This document shows, in pieces, positions 4,181 through 50,472 of a stretch of DNA of 64,000 nt (the first letter of the stretch is position 1; each line of letters starts with the position of its first letter). The position numbers and the translations under genes were made by a program. Origin of the DNA: Alcanivoracaceae bacterium (GTDB lineage: Bacteria > Pseudomonadota > Gammaproteobacteria > Xanthomonadales > Marinicellaceae); the NCBI GenBank assembly GCA_016744455.1, contig JADGEI010000001.1, positions 518,884 to 582,883 of the forward strand. Direction: 5' to 3'. The notes beneath the pieces were generated by a model, which was not told where the DNA came from, ran no database searches, and was given only the letters and a program-made list of their open reading frames with translations.

Positions 4181-6295
4181 TTATTCGAAAACCATATCAT
4201 TTTTAGCATGTTTGATTAAAATATCAGCAGGTGTAAATCTTACTCCGAAACGGCTTTCTAAATCATTTAATTTATCTAAAATGGTGCTGGCACCTTGGGT
4301 GTTAATGTAACTAAATGGGCCACCAGTAAATGGAGGGAAACCTAAGCCTAATATTGCAGCTAAATCTCCGTCACTGGCAGATGATATAATGCCTTCTTGT
4401 AAACACAGCAGGGCTTCATTAACCATAGATAAGCCAATTTGATTTTGAACTTTTTCTTTATCCAGTTCTTTGCGTTCTTCACCGCCGAAATATTTGTATA
4501 TGCCTGTATTGACGGTTTTACGCCCTTTTTTTGGGTAATTGTAAAATCCTTTATTTGCTTTACGCCCCAATAATTTAGCATCGGATAATCTTTGTACGCT
4601 ATCATCCTCTTCAATCCCGCGATCACGGAACATTTCACCTAAATCACCTCGGGCAATATGAGCTGCAACATCTATACCTACCTCATCGAGTAATGATAAG
4701 GGACCAACTGGAAATCCCCAATCTTTCATAGCGTTATCAATGCATTCTATCGAAGCCCCTTGTTTTAATACTTGAATGGCCTCATGAGTTAAGGCAGATA
4801 GTATTCTTGTCGTATAGAAACCTGGGCCATCTTTAACAATTACGACAGTTTTTCCTTGATCTAGTCCTACATTAGTTGCAATCGCTTTCGCTCTTGCAGA
4901 CGTTTTGTCTGTAATAATGATTTCCAATAATGGCATCTTAGGTACAGGAGAAAAATAATGCATTCCCACTACGTTTTCGGGGTTTTTTGTATTGGCAGCG
5001 ATATCAGCAACTGGTAAAGATGAAGTGTTGGTGGCAAATATAGTGTTGTTTGCACAGGTGTTTTCGACACCTGATAAAATCTTTTGTTTTAAATCAATGT
5101 CTTCGAATACAGCTTCTATAACTAAATCAACTTCTTTCATGTCCGTTTCTTTAACTGTAGTTGTGATCTTTGACATTAATGTGTCACGCTCAACATGTCC
5201 CATGGCTTTGCGTTTAACTAATCGATTAAAGTCGTACCAAATGGTTTTAAGGGCTTTTCCTAAACCTTCTAAATTTATGTCTTTAAGAATTACATCATAG
5301 CCTGCTTTAATTGAAACTTCTGTGATTCCTGCTCCCATAAATCCTGCACCAATCATAGCAATAGTATCTACCTGGTGTGTTTTTGCATCGGACCTTAATT
5401 TTTTGTTATCTTGCATAGCTAAAAATAAGCCAATTAAGTTTTGACACGCAGGTGTTCCATGTAAAAAACCAAATCCCGCTGATTCTGCTTCCAATCCTGC
5501 TGCAAACCCATTATCCAACCCAATTTCCACACAATCAAGGATTTTTAGTGGAGCAGGGTAGTTGCCACGAGTTTTACGAGTGACTGTTTCACGAGCTTTT
5601 TTCAATACAAGGTTCCTGCCTATAGATGTATTTAGAGCCTTATCAAGTATACTTTTTTTGCGAAGTTTTTTCTTTATGCCACCATTCGTTATTGCTTGTG
5701 TAGCTACTTTGATCGCTGCTTGTAAAAGACCTTCTTTATGTATTAGTTCATCGACTAATCCAATTTTCTTAGCTTTGAATGGATAAACGTTTTTCCCTGT
5801 AAGTAACATATCTAAGGCGTTTCGCAACCCTACATATTTGACACTTCTTTGTGTACCACCTCCACCAGGTAGTAAACCTAGCTTAATTTCGGGAAATCCA
5901 AATACGGTTTTCTTGTCAACGCTTGCTATACGGTAATGACAAGCTAAAGCAAACTCTAATCCACCACCAAGTGTTGCGCCGTTTATTGCAGCAATAACGG
6001 GTTTTGATAAATTTGCTAAACGGTTCAACAGTTTGTTTCCACCTCTTGAAAGTTCTTCAGCTTCTTCGCTACTTTTCATTTCCATAAAGGCTTTTATATC
6101 TGCTCCTGCAACCCAGCAATCTTTTTTCTTGCTGTAAAGAATGGCCGCATTTATACCTTTATCTTCTTCAATGGTGTCTAATAAACCTTTGAAATCATCT
6201 AACATACTTGCAGATAAAACATTTACTGGGGATTTTGGCTGATCTAAATATATGATTGCAATGCCATCTTGTTTTTCAATTGTAAAATAGGCCAT
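4181..6295 (-). CDS. fadJ: fatty acid oxidation complex alpha subunit (enoyl-CoA hydratase/3-hydroxyacyl-CoA dehydrogenase), FadJ-like
   Basis: N-terminal crotonase, internal Rossmann IGAGFMGAGI, HYFSPVPKMPLLEII. Confidence 0.9.
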   Translation of the reverse strand: MAYFTIEKQDGIAIIYLDQPKSPVNVLSASMLDDFKGLLDTIEEDKGINAAILYSKKKDCWVAGADIKAFMEMKSSEEAEELSRGGNKLLNRLANLSKPVIAAINGATLGGGLEFALACHYRIASVDKKTVFGFPEIKLGLLPGGGGTQRSVKYVGLRNALDMLLTGKNVYPFKAKKIGLVDELIHKEGLLQAAIKVATQAITNGGIKKKLRKKSILDKALNTSIGRNLVLKKARETVTRKTRGNYPAPLKILDCVEIGLDNGFAAGLEAESAGFGFLHGTPACQNLIGLFLAMQDNKKLRSDAKTHQVDTIAMIGAGFMGAGITEVSIKAGYDVILKDINLEGLGKALKTIWYDFNRLVKRKAMGHVERDTLMSKITTTVKETDMKEVDLVIEAVFEDIDLKQKILSGVENTCANNTIFATNTSSLPVADIAANTKNPENVVGMHYFSPVPKMPLLEIIITDKTSARAKAIATNVGLDQGKTVVIVKDGPGFYTTRILSALTHEAIQVLKQGASIECIDNAMKDWGFPVGPLSLLDEVGIDVAAHIARGDLGEMFRDRGIEEDDSVQRLSDAKLLGRKANKGFYNYPKKGRKTVNTGIYKYFGGEERKELDKEKVQNQIGLSMVNEALLCLQEGIISSASDGDLAAILGLGFPPFTGGPFSYINTQGASTILDKLNDLESRFGVRFTPADILIKHAKNDMVFE

Positions 6296-7698
6296 TATGA
6301 ATTCTCCTCATTAGGATTTACTTTTTTGCTTGTTTTTTTAGTTACTTTCTTTTTTGAAACCTTTTTCTTAGTCACTTTCTTCTTAGTCGTTTTAACAGAT
6401 GGGCTGTTTGAAATTTTCTTGAGTAAAATACTGCTTCCTTGCCCCCCTGCTGCACATGCTGAAATGAGGGCGTATTTACCATCACTTGCCATCAATCTTC
6501 TAGTGGCGGAAATTAATAACCTTCCACCTGTTGCACCAAATGGATGTCCTAGAGATAAAGAACCCCCTTCGGTATTAATTTTATCCATTGGAATCTCACC
6601 AAATGCATCTTTTAATCCCAAATGTTCTCTACAGAATTCTGCATCTTGCAAAGCATTTAAATTGGCAAGAACCTGTCCTGCAAAAGCTTCATGGATTTCA
6701 AATACAGATATGTCTGATAATTTTAACCCAGCTTCATTTAATAGCTTAGGGATAGTGAAGGCAGGCCCTAGTAAGAGTTCACCATCAGGATTATGTGCTG
6801 AATATTGGTAACCATAAATGACAACTTCTGGTGTGTATCCTTGTTTTTTTGCCTCATCTATGTGCATTAATAAACAAGCCGAAGCACCATCCGTCAGAGG
6901 AGATGCGTTACCAGCTGTGACTGTACCAATAGGTTTTACAAAAACTGGGCGAAGGCCTGAGAGTTTCTGTATTGAAGAGGTAGCATAAAATGTGTTATCT
7001 TGTTCCATTGGTTTAAATTCTGGAGCAACCAACATGGGGGCTACTTCATTATCAAACTTACCATCTTTCCAAGCTTGTGTAGCTAATTGATGAGAGCGTA
7101 AGGCAAATTCATCTTGTTGCATACGTGATACACCAAAACGTGCAGCTAGCCTATCAGCATCTTGCCCCATTGTTTTGCCTGTTGAAAACTCAGCAATTGC
7201 AGGTGGTACTGGGATTAAGTCTTTAAATTTAAACTGCTTAAACAAATTCCAATAATCTTTTGCACCTTTTGCGCGCTGTGCTTTCATTAAAACGGTTTTA
7301 AACTTATCTGATATTCTGACTGGTGCATCTGATGTTGATTCTACACCACCGGCTATAGCTGTTTTCATTACACCTGCTTCAATGGCTTCAACGGTATTTG
7401 TGATTGCTCGATTTGCTGATATACAAGCTTGAGTAACTGTTGAGGCTGGTATAGATAAATCATAACCTGCTCCTATCAAAGATTCTCGTGCTACATTACT
7501 CGTAGCAGCATTATGTATAACACAGCCCATGGTTACTTGTTCACATTTATCTTCCAAAATAGGATTACGTTTTTTTAGTGCCAATAAAGCTTCTCTTCCT
7601 AAATCATAGGATTTAAGTTTGGCATACGGCCCGGGTGACTTTGCAAACGGAGTTCTTACGCCATCAATAAATGCTACTTTTGCTTGTTTAAATATCAT
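6295..7698 (-). CDS. fadI: acetyl-CoA C-acyltransferase (thiolase), FadI-like, with Lys-rich C-terminal tail
   Basis: VAFIDGVRTPFAKS, GHPFGATGGR, CAAGGQG thiolase motifs; start taken as MIFKQAK within the 7710 ORF. Confidence 0.9.
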   Translation of the reverse strand: MIFKQAKVAFIDGVRTPFAKSPGPYAKLKSYDLGREALLALKKRNPILEDKCEQVTMGCVIHNAATSNVARESLIGAGYDLSIPASTVTQACISANRAITNTVEAIEAGVMKTAIAGGVESTSDAPVRISDKFKTVLMKAQRAKGAKDYWNLFKQFKFKDLIPVPPAIAEFSTGKTMGQDADRLAARFGVSRMQQDEFALRSHQLATQAWKDGKFDNEVAPMLVAPEFKPMEQDNTFYATSSIQKLSGLRPVFVKPIGTVTAGNASPLTDGASACLLMHIDEAKKQGYTPEVVIYGYQYSAHNPDGELLLGPAFTIPKLLNEAGLKLSDISVFEIHEAFAGQVLANLNALQDAEFCREHLGLKDAFGEIPMDKINTEGGSLSLGHPFGATGGRLLISATRRLMASDGKYALISACAAGGQGSSILLKKISNSPSVKTTKKKVTKKKVSKKKVTKKTSKKVNPNEENS

Positions 7699-7728
7699 GA
7701 ATGTTCTCAATTAAATATGAATCCATAC

Positions 7729-7757
7729 ATTGTTACCATACGCATGCGTATTGTCAA
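7729..7757 (-). promoter_or_regulatory. putative fadI/fadJ promoter with palindromic operator in the spacer
   Basis: Minus strand reads TTGACA-ATACGCATGCGTATGGT-AACAAT (17-nt spacer); perfect palindrome ATACGCATGCGTAT at 7738..7751. Confidence 0.7.
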
Positions 7758-46061: not shown

Positions 46062-47282
46062 TTAGTCTTTAAATTTTTGCAATACCAAAGTAGCATTGGT
46101 TCCACCAAATCCAAAACTATTTGACATGACTGTTTTTAATTCAATGTCTTCAATTAACTCACTTACAATTGGTGTGCCTTCAGGAATTTTCTCGTCTAAT
46201 TGTGTTATGTTGGCAGAAGCTGAAATAAAGCTGTTTTCCATCATTTGCAATGAATATATTGCTTCATGTACACCTGCTGCGCCTAATGAATGGCCTGATA
46301 ATGACTTGGTTGATGTGATTTTTGGCATATCATCTTTGAATACTTCAGTAATGGCTTTGAGTTCAGTTGTATCACCTGCGGGTGTACTTGTGCCATGTGC
46401 ATTGAGGTAATCTACTCTACCTTCTACTGTGCTCAATGCTTGATTCATACATCTAACAGCACCCTCACCTGAAGGGGCGACCATATTATACCCATCTGAT
46501 GTAGCACCATAACCTACAATTTCACAAAGAATATTAGCACCACGTGCTTGAGCATGTTCTAAACTTTCCACAACCACAACCCCTGCCCCACCAGCAATAA
46601 CGAACCCATCGCGAGTTTGGTCATAGGGTCTTGATGCGGTTTCTGGTGTATCATTATACTTTGTTGATAAAGCTCCCATAGCATCAAACATCATACTCAA
46701 AGTCCAATGTTCTTCTTCTCCACCACCTGCAAATACAATATCTTGTTTACCAAATTGAATTTGTTCCATTGCTAAACCAATGCAATGCGAACTTGTTGCA
46801 CAAGCTGAGCTAAGTGAGTAATTTAAACCTTTAATTTTAAATGGTGTCGCTAATGTCGCGGATATACCGCTCCCCATCGTTTTGGTTACCACATAGGGGC
46901 CAACTCGGCGAATTCCACGTTCTCGTAAAGTGTCTACTCGGTCGACTATACAATCTGAAGATGTGCCTCCAGCACCTATGATTAATCCAGTTCTAATATT
47001 CGATACTTGATCATCATTTAACCCAGAATGTTCGATGGCTTCTTTCATCGCGATATAAGCATAAGCAGAACCAGTTCCCATAAAACGTAAATCCTTACGC
47101 CCTATATGGTCTTTAAAGTTAATGTCTACACTGCCAGATACATGGCTTCTTAAACCTTGTTCTTTATAGCTTTCATTGTATGATATCCCAGATTCACCTG
47201 ACTTAAGGGAGTCTAAAACTTCTGTTTTATTATTGCCTAAGCATGACACAATCCCATAACCCGTGATAACAACTCTTTTCAT
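46062..47282 (-). CDS. fabB: beta-ketoacyl-ACP synthase I
   Basis: [52 protein letters not shown]. Confidence 0.96.
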
Positions 47283-47797
47283 CAGAAATTCTCCGTCGAA
47301 GTGAATAGCCCTACACGTAATTTATTTGCAGTATATATAATTTTCCCATCTACATTTACAGTACCATCAGCTATAGCATACTTTAGTTTTGAATCTATCA
47401 TGCGTTTAATATTGAGCTTATATGTGACTTTCTTTGCATTTGGGAGTACTTGCCCTCGAAATTTAACATCACCAACACCAAGGGCTCGCCCTTTGCCTTT
47501 GTAACCGTTCCAGATCATATGAAAACCAACGAGTTGCCATAATGCATCAAGACCTAGGCATCCAGGCATTACTGGGTCACCTTCAAAGTGACAAGCAAAA
47601 AACCATAGATCTGGATTTATGTCTAATTCAGCAATTATTTCACCTTTTCCAAACTCCCCACCATCGCTATTAATATTGATTATTCTATCTACCATTAACA
47701 TATTACCAGCAGGTAATTTTGCATTATCCATCCCAAATAATTTTCCTTGACTACACTTGATTAAGTCATTTTTACTAAAGCTGCTTTGTTGCGACAT
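47282..47797 (-). CDS. fabA: 3-hydroxydecanoyl-ACP dehydratase/isomerase
   Basis: [24 protein letters not shown]. Confidence 0.96.
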
Positions 47798-47992
47798 ATT
47801 TTATTTCTTGAAGAGTTTAAAACTTGGCATACTAAGTGGATTAATTAGCATTGTCAAGCAAGCCACTTAAATTATGAATTAAAGTTTACATGTGTACGCT
47901 TAAATTTTATATTGAAATAATCAAACGTTGAATATATCATGGTAACCATATGATATACATGAATTATTTATACAATTGACTTATATACATAC

Positions 47993-48006
47993 ATACGCAT
48001 GCGTAT
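47993..48006. promoter_or_regulatory. palindromic operator upstream of fabA-fabB
   Basis: ATACGCATGCGTAT, identical to the site at 7738..7751. Confidence 0.65.
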
Positions 48007-48066: not shown

Positions 48067-50472
48067 TTATTCAAACCCATTAGAAAAAATAACACCCGTA
48101 TCTATAAAAGGCGCTAGAATAATTACATCATCAATATGCCAACCGTCTTCGTTTACTGAACTATCACTAGTGACTCGAAAACGAATCATTGCATTGCTAT
48201 TTGAAAGTTGAGGCAATGCCAACTCTACTGAACTCCATTGTGTATTTCTTCCATTGTAACTAGTAACTTGTTGCCAATTGCCCCCAGCATCTGTAGAGAT
48301 CTCTAATAACCCATAATCAAACCCTGATTCAAAATCATAGGTATGCTTAAATGTTAGAATAGGATCTTGTAGTTGAATTAAGTTTATGACTGGAGAAGTC
48401 AATGAAAAATCTGCATTATCCGGATAATTACTTCCTGGGCTATCTGCCCACGAATGTGTTGGGCTTGCTGATTTCTCATTTGTTATAGCCCAAGAAGAAT
48501 CTGCAGACCATCCATTAGAACCCGTTTCAACATACTCAGTATACACATTAACCAAAGGAACTAATTCAAAATCATGTTGGCTACTTTGCGAGTTAATAAC
48601 CGTGATTTCACTTTCTTGTTCAGATAAATAACCATCAATAGTTACGACCATATCATAAGTTGCAACAGGCAACTGTAGGCTGTATTGACCATTTGCATCT
48701 GTTTCAATTTGATATGAGTTTATTTTTATTTGTGCAAATTGAATAGGAGCGCCTGTATTAATATCACTAACAGTTCCTAAAATTGTTGGAGCAATGTTTG
48801 GGTCAATTAAATCAAGGTATACTGAACTTACTGCACCCCAATTATCTTCACTATCCTTTGCCCTTATAAAAACAAGGTTTCTCCCTAGCTCTAGATTTCC
48901 AGTGTTAACATTAGCATTTACAGTTTCTTGTTCGTCATCATAGCTACCATCAACTGCCTGCATGCTAATCGGAGATGCAGAAGGGGCCCATGGTGGTGTG
49001 TTGATTGTGATTTCTGCAGCATTGATAGTTTGTGTTGGCTCTATTCCAGTTCCGTTTGTATATCTTGTATCATCAGTAAATGCTGTAATTGAAACATTAG
49101 CACCTAGTGGGTGAGGGATATTTAACTGATATGGCGTGCTATCTGGCCCTAATGGAATTGTGTATGGCTTTCTTGATGCTTTTGCAGCATAAATTAATGT
49201 ATCTATATTACTATCTACAATCGAATTTTCAAAAAAATCACACTCTTCAAAAAATTCAGTACCAAGTTCGATTGTATAACCTGGAACACCAAAACGGCCA
49301 TAGGCAAAATCTTTTGTTGATCCATCAACTGTACCTAGGCTCCCAAGTTGGGGTGCATAATTATTAAAATAAGCAAATTTTCTTGCTAAGCTTAAAATTC
49401 CATCACCATTGGGTGGAGGCGTAGATGAAAAACCCCATGATGACAATATAACTTGCCCATAGCTATGTATGTCAAGGTAGACACCTACAGTATCAAGTGG
49501 TGCAACAGATATTAAATCATCATCACGTTGATCATCAAAGTTTAATGATAAATAGTCGATAATTGATTGTGTCTCTGGCTCAGATGATGAAGAAGGCCCC
49601 CTGAAAGATGTGCTACATGGGTCCGTACTTGAGCCTCCACAACAGTCCCATTGAAAATTGAAATTTCTATTTAGGTCAATACCTCTGTTATTTGAGTTCG
49701 AACAAAAATTGTTATTTGTGTTTTTTCTCCAAGAAAGACCAGTTTCTGCCTTTTTTCTACCGTCAGGATTAGAATTTAAAATCAAATGAATTTCGTGATG
49801 ATCAACCAACCATGTAATATCTGGGTTTTCACCGTATTCATTTAGTAATTTTTCAGCAAAGCGTGTCACCAGTTCTGAATTTGTATATTCTCTTGCATGT
49901 ATACCACTAGTAACAATTAATGGTGGTTTATCTCCAGTTACTGCTGTGTTACTAATTTTTAAAACTTTAATATCGTACCCTTCAGAGATGTTTTGAGTTT
50001 TCTCCCAAGAGTCACCTATATCATTCCACTCTGCAAGGTTTGGATAGGATGCCACCAATGACTCAGCAGTATTGAATGTTTCTTCTACAGTTCTATAACA
50101 AGAAAACCCAGGAATTGATTCCGTTGTTTTAGTGTTATTAACTTCCACAAAATTTTGGGCATTACTGTTTATAGCAAGATTGGTGTTTAAATTAGCTGTT
50201 TTAGGTTCATTTATTTTCATACTAAATCTATGATTTTTCAACCAATCAAATTCTGATTTGCCAACATCTAAAATGACAAGGTTTTTTGCTGGGTGGTGAT
50301 TGAAATGATCAAATTTACTTTTAATAAGCTCTAACTCAAGCTTGGTACTATAATTAATGTTAATTATCCATCTTTGTTTATCTATTCCAGAGCTAGTAGT
50401 ACTAAATATTAGGAGCAAAATTAGAGGAAAAATTGATGAATTGATACTTCTGTAATTTATAATGTTATGCAT
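48067..50472 (-). CDS. secreted M14 zinc carboxypeptidase with CarboxypepD_reg-like and MAM/immune-inhibitor-like regions, ends IFSNGFE
   Basis: VTSGIHAREYTNSELV, LNSNPDGRKKAE, GIDLNRNFNFQW, TIELGTEF; C-term VIFSNGFE. Confidence 0.9.
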   Translation of the reverse strand: MHNIINYRSINSSIFPLILLLIFSTTSSGIDKQRWIININYSTKLELELIKSKFDHFNHHPAKNLVILDVGKSEFDWLKNHRFSMKINEPKTANLNTNLAINSNAQNFVEVNNTKTTESIPGFSCYRTVEETFNTAESLVASYPNLAEWNDIGDSWEKTQNISEGYDIKVLKISNTAVTGDKPPLIVTSGIHAREYTNSELVTRFAEKLLNEYGENPDITWLVDHHEIHLILNSNPDGRKKAETGLSWRKNTNNNFCSNSNNRGIDLNRNFNFQWDCCGGSSTDPCSTSFRGPSSSSEPETQSIIDYLSLNFDDQRDDDLISVAPLDTVGVYLDIHSYGQVILSSWGFSSTPPPNGDGILSLARKFAYFNNYAPQLGSLGTVDGSTKDFAYGRFGVPGYTIELGTEFFEECDFFENSIVDSNIDTLIYAAKASRKPYTIPLGPDSTPYQLNIPHPLGANVSITAFTDDTRYTNGTGIEPTQTINAAEITINTPPWAPSASPISMQAVDGSYDDEQETVNANVNTGNLELGRNLVFIRAKDSEDNWGAVSSVYLDLIDPNIAPTILGTVSDINTGAPIQFAQIKINSYQIETDANGQYSLQLPVATYDMVVTIDGYLSEQESEITVINSQSSQHDFELVPLVNVYTEYVETGSNGWSADSSWAITNEKSASPTHSWADSPGSNYPDNADFSLTSPVINLIQLQDPILTFKHTYDFESGFDYGLLEISTDAGGNWQQVTSYNGRNTQWSSVELALPQLSNSNAMIRFRVTSDSSVNEDGWHIDDVIILAPFIDTGVIFSNGFE

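Follow-up and report, generated by a model that had tools for sequence, protein, structure and literature searches.

A palindrome repeated before fadIJ and fabAB as the probable operator of a TfmR-type TetR regulator

Introduction

In Escherichia coli, the acyl-responsive regulator FadR acts on both the fad genes and fabA/fabB, while FabR provides a second input at fabA. A comparable coupling is raised as a question by the window studied here (the whole stretch of DNA analysed, 64 kb), in which the same 14-nt palindrome, ATACGCATGCGTAT, stands before the fabA-fabB operon of unsaturated fatty acid synthesis and before fadI- and fadJ-like genes of beta-oxidation. The E. coli FadR operator consensus differs from this palindrome, and the original prediction had accordingly proposed that a single factor other than FadR serves both pathways. 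Which protein reads the sequence, and with what effect at each operon? Computational analysis supports the proposal of one shared factor, pointing to a TetR gene linked to fadE and to further sites in related genomes.

The repeated palindrome and its setting

The features of the two loci are as follows.

4181..6295, minus strand: fadJ-like multifunctional beta-oxidation subunit (best NCBIfam match FadJ; Pfam ECH_1 and 3HCDH)
6295..7710, minus strand: fadI-like thiolase (likely ATG near 7700; best NCBIfam match FadI)
7729..7757, minus strand: fadI promoter (TTGACA, 17-bp spacer with the palindrome, AACAAT; promoter scan 10/12)
7738..7751, no strand assigned: identical palindrome, predicted operator (exact match; before fadIJ, inside the -35/-10 spacer)
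46062..47282, minus strand: fabB (NCBIfam NF005935, 684.6 bits, above cut-off; overlaps fabA, one operon)
47282..47797, minus strand: fabA (NCBIfam TIGR01749, 273.8 bits, above cut-off)
47829..47857, minus strand: fabA core promoter (TTGACA, 17 bp, TAGTAT; promoter scan 10/12)
47884..47900, minus strand: FabR-like box AGCGTACACATGTAAAC (centre 34.5 bp 5' of the fabA -35)
47993..48006, no strand assigned: palindromic operator (predicted), ATACGCATGCGTAT (exact match; before fabAB)

The exact repeat was borne out, with one copy at 47993–48006, 195 bp 5' of the fabA ATG (47797), and the other at 7738–7751, approximately 38 bp 5' of the probable fadI ATG (~7700). The 3,623,685-bp assembly contains no further exact copy, and none of a reversed control pattern. 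From a first-order Markov model of the window, 0.00013 exact copies per 64 kb and 0.007 per genome would be expected, in agreement with the earlier view that a chance repeat is unlikely. Degenerate copies, by comparison, occur in the 64-kb window at chance level (four matches with up to three mismatches vs 2.45 expected), so that the signal resides in the exact and flank-matching copies. Genome-wide, the looser pattern ATACG-N4-CGTAT with one mismatch was found at 34 places as opposed to 104 for its reversed control; apart from the known sites, those inspected were mostly intragenic, and the pattern alone therefore reveals no larger regulon. Two-mismatch matches to ATACGCATGCGTAT other than those at tetR/fadE and fadH are mostly coding as well, and a literature search for the motif yielded just unrelated primer-type sequences among the matches listed.

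At the fad locus, the fadI-like thiolase scores 445.7 bits against NCBIfam FadI, under the equivalog cut-off, and exceeds the TIGR01930 subfamily cut-off, while the fadJ-like subunit reaches 790.6 bits against NCBIfam FadJ, just under the cut-off of 869. In the fadI promoter, -35 and -10 are separated by a 17-bp spacer that contains the palindrome; this is the classical occluding position of a repressor. Its position is the same family-wide and the TTGACA flank is kept beside it; exact copies in the family are mostly found 5' of fadI, within CTTGACA-ATACGCATGCGTAT-GGTGACAAT, with a few others at tetR/fadE.

A position weight matrix was built from 74 tetR/fadE and fadI sites, all from other genomes and none from fabA. 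In the window it ranks the fadI site first (32.0) and the fabA site second (15.8), the third best place scoring 1.1, and 10 Mb of Markov-random sequence contains no place with a score of 15.8 or more. One place in an ftsI-like coding region of this genome matches the score of the window's fabA site; the matrix alone is thus insufficient proof, and the fabA case is carried by sequence identity and conservation.

The motif beside a fadE-linked TetR gene

The original prediction had also suggested a search for a TetR or GntR gene whose own promoter has this site. Such a gene was found outside the window, divergent from a gene for a FadE-type acyl-CoA dehydrogenase and with the motif present twice in the intergenic region.

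G000:C4:101036-101602, minus strand: TetR regulator gene, 189 aa, divergent from fadE

The protein matches the TetR N-terminal helix-turn-helix (PF00440) with 45.7 bits over a cut-off of 24. A two-mismatch search placed ATACGCTAGCGTAT at G000:C4:101668, directly 5' of the gene, and a second intergenic site, ATACTATGGCGTAT, lies 37 bp from it; both fit ATAC-N6-GTAT. This arrangement is kept across the family (G001-G032) wherever enough sequence is available, usually as two copies 37 bp apart. Most of the order's other families contain orthologues with 34–45% identity and ATAC-N6-GTAT alongside; there, an alpha/beta-hydrolase gene often separates the sites from fadE (tetR|hydrolase-fadE), a gene order described for TfmR of Xanthomonas citri (PMC6637906). 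In the window organism's family, fadE has no such hydrolase gene beside it. The recognition-helix segment is near-invariant in 50 orthologues (consensus GVTKGSFYWHF), and outside the order a comparable protein was found in only five of ~270 sampled genomes of the class. G011, a near-complete genome of the same family and another genus (L190), lacks an orthologue of this TetR protein; it also lacks a close FadI, and its fabA has no palindrome nearby.

A further site of the palindrome type precedes fadH, in the window genome as a two-mismatch match and in 9/9 further genus genomes in which the DNA before fadH is readable. Elsewhere it was found in one f10 and one f2 genome, with a weaker site in another f2 genome.

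The fabA site within the genus and beyond

The fabA core promoter is conserved in an alignment of seven genus genomes. The palindrome centre lies 142 bp 5' of its -35, far from the core promoter and with no overlap in the genus. ATACGC-N2-GCGTAT stands before fabA in all five genus relatives that are readable there (G004, G006, G007, G009, and G010), a count that excludes a sixth relative whose contig ends too early. Both half-sites are unchanged, while the two central bases vary (AT, TA, CT, CA or TG, AG, TT). Close relatives thus carry the motif before fadI, fadE and fabA, the very places where its absence had been named as evidence against shared control. The fabA sites have one outer GG/CC flank or neither and score 15.8–23.7 with the matrix, as opposed to ~30 for most fad sites; due to these flanks, they are predicted to be weaker operators.

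Across lineages, the distance from the centre of the distal palindrome to the fabA -35 is 142, 142, 143, and 132 bp, the sequence in between being ~60% identical in a gapped alignment; the change in spacing corresponds to one helical turn. This spacing suggests an action that would depend on the face of the helix. Between operator and fabA promoter, several relatives also share a recurring stretch resembling ATCAATAA-N-TTAG (L174-L179). In G000, pepO is separated from the fabA operator by an M14 zinc carboxypeptidase gene (48067-50472); in G009 and G004, pepO adjoins fabA with no peptidase insert, and the operator stays with fabA. A distal fabA promoter whose spacer would hold the operator was sought by eye in the alignment, but the signal was too weak for a claim. 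A transfer of the window fabA from Pseudomonas, considered on the basis of a tree, was likewise dropped because FabA of family f8 is equally close (up to 71%).

Although the fabA site at first seemed restricted to one genus, a wider sample showed otherwise. In family f2, which may be the family containing Xanthomonas, the exact core TACG-N4-CGTA precedes fabA in 14/25 sampled genomes, mostly ~90–100 bp upstream, and several others have it with one mismatch. The site is also found in one f4 and one f11 genome, is mostly missing in f12, and was found at none of 77 fabA loci from named genomes (mainly Pseudomonas). In nearly all core-bearing f2 genomes, the core centre lies ~18 bp 5' of a conserved TTGAT element, the putative -35, and one f4 genome shows the same geometry; the f2 core would therefore sit near -54, a position usual for an activator. 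Since the flanks of the f2 fab sites (TACG-N4-CGTACGG) are slightly unlike those of the fad sites, common ownership of both, as judged from their sequences, is likely rather than certain. Just 3' of the fabA palindrome, some f2 and f4 genomes (L342, L353, L355, and L347) contain TTGA(C/T)GC-N-GTCAG or TGATCTGCGTCAA, sequences which recall an FNR/ANR-type box.

FabR and its separate box

The genome encodes an orthodox FabR (294 bits over a cut-off of 151), and its own box is the candidate at 47884–47900. In the seven genomes compared, presence of the box tracks the fabR gene: G000, G002, G007, and G010 have both, while G004, G006, and G009 (95–100% complete) have neither. The palindrome does not follow fabR in these genomes as a box of the AGCGTACA-N2-TGTACGCT type does; it persists in the three FabR-less genomes, where it is even doubled with copies 27 bp apart. 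As the palindrome is kept where FabR has been lost, it is not a FabR site. In the window organism, fabAB is thus predicted to receive two regulatory inputs, one through the FabR box and one through the palindrome.

Proposed regulator and sign of control

Taken together, the sites and their conservation, the regulator gene with sites of its own, the synteny and the co-variation of FabR and box make it probable that the palindrome is the operator of the fadE-divergent, TfmR-type TetR repressor and is shared by the fad genes and fabAB. The ligand-free dimer would bind in the fadIJ promoter spacer, over the tetR and fadE promoters and just 5' of fadH, thereby blocking transcription. Long-chain fatty acid, the ligand expected by analogy with TfmR of Xanthomonas citri, would release the dimer and switch beta-oxidation on. 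The same protein would bind 5' of fabAB beside the FabR box, so that the synthesis of unsaturated fatty acids would respond to this signal as well.

The sign of control at fabAB is less clear. Based on the position of the site, upstream of the promoter in the genus and with the f2 geometry described above, activation by the ligand-free protein is slightly favoured, at about even confidence; it would reproduce the logic of E. coli FadR through an unrelated protein. A TfmR-type protein can activate, as TfmR of X. oryzae directly activates rpfG and hrpX (PMC11173191). The report on X. citri (PMC6637906) bears on the question from both sides: oleate relieves the growth defect of tfmR mutants, which was counted for activation, and the tfmR mutant contains more total unsaturated fatty acid, with branched forms raised and straight-chain forms unchanged. 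The higher unsaturated fraction does not favour simple activation.

The same regulator might instead repress fabAB, either via a distal promoter or together with FabR, the loss of which would then be offset by the second operator. TetR proteins mostly repress, the operator is doubled in the three FabR-less genomes, and the excess of unsaturated fatty acid in the X. citri mutant (PMC6637906) agrees with repression as well. This reading appears doubtful, however, considering that the site lies outside the core fabA promoter in the genus and that the f2 site is placed just 5' of the putative -35, not across the promoter. Furthermore, repression by the ligand-free form would be uneconomical, with fabAB rising amid plentiful external fatty acid.

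Ownership of the fabA palindrome by another TetR protein with nearly the same recognition, for example a PsrA-like or FabR-like one, is improbable. There are candidates enough, with 11 TetR_N proteins in the genome, including FabR and two PsrA-like ones, and thus 10 others, and the deviating f2 fabA flanks would fit a different owner; against this, the site is kept in FabR-less relatives, and fabA and fadI have the very same 14-mer, the fadI site in turn having the tetR/fadE motif. Moreover, the PsrA motif G/CAAAC(N2-4)GTTTG/C (PMC10304680) is dissimilar to ATACGC-N2-GCGTAT, so the palindrome does not qualify as a PsrA operator. The two PsrA-like genes (L132 and L140; G000:C13 and G000:C40) coexist with the TfmR-type gene and FabR. 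That a perfect palindrome recurs by chance and has no role at fabA is hardly credible: the lack of enrichment of degenerate matches and the coding-region place with an equal matrix score would allow it, but ~0.007 exact copies are expected genome-wide, and the site is retained with a varying centre in 5/5 relatives and duplicated in three.

Returning to the TfmR-type regulator as shared owner, a fuller scenario can be offered tentatively and at less than even confidence. The TetR protein would have reached the full FadR logic independently, its ligand-free form blocking beta-oxidation from promoter spacers and activating fabAB from an upstream site. This would be an old trait of the order, which in the genus came to use a distal operator in helical phase. 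In lineages that lost FabR, the operator would have been doubled, and control of unsaturated fatty acid synthesis would have passed mainly to this protein.

Comparison with known systems

It is already known that one protein can control both pathways (FadR) and that either pathway can be under a TetR protein (PsrA, FabR, and TfmR). The novelty, at the level of sequence analysis, lies in a motif for the operator of a TfmR-type protein, in the prediction of fadIJ and fabAB as targets, and in operator copies that co-vary with FabR. The result is a compact predicted regulon comprising tetR, fadE, fadIJ, fadH, and fabAB for a regulator family hitherto known from a small number of plant pathogens, and the prediction that this family controls unsaturated fatty acid synthesis too. 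If true, the coupling of fatty acid synthesis and breakdown through a single sensor evolved separately in the GntR (FadR) and TetR families, and FabR loss with operator doubling would represent a readable regulatory takeover.

The proposed system resembles that of E. coli FadR in having one regulator for the fad genes and fabA/fabB and FabR as a second input at fabA. FadR is of the GntR type with another operator, whereas here a TetR-type protein with a distal fabA operator would do both jobs. FabR, itself a TetR regulator of fabAB, has an orthologue and a box beside the palindrome; it differs in that FabR-less relatives keep the palindrome, and its known targets are genes of fatty acid synthesis (and des), not of beta-oxidation (PMC5343134). 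PsrA of Pseudomonas, Azotobacter, and Shewanella is a TetR protein released by long-chain fatty acids and represses beta-oxidation in Pseudomonas, but its operator is GAAAC-N4-GTTTC and separate PsrA-like genes are present in this genome. PsrA and TfmR share 18% identity (PMC13104628). In Azotobacter vinelandii, PsrA acts directly at fabAB; on the sign of this action the same source is divided, its text giving negative control and a title that it cites positive control.

The closest counterpart is TfmR (X. citri XAC3052 and X. oryzae pv. oryzicola). TfmR of X. citri represses mhpC/fadE and fadH, the latter a direct target bound by the protein, and long-chain fatty acids release it (PMC6637906). 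The likeness extends to membership of the TetR family, a length (189 aa) within about 190–200 aa, a gene divergent from the fadE unit with operators in between and, in many order relatives, an intervening hydrolase gene, sites in its own promoter region, and fadH as a target, here a predicted one (PMC6637906). The designation as TfmR-type is thus made provisionally from synteny and targets, plus the order relatives at 34–45% identity, rather than from the XAC3052 sequence. Neither an operator motif nor a fab target was found in the passages on TfmR that were consulted. In contrast to TfmR as described there, the system considered here has a defined motif, a near-perfect fadIJ operator and no hydrolase gene beside fadE, and adds fabAB to the predicted targets.
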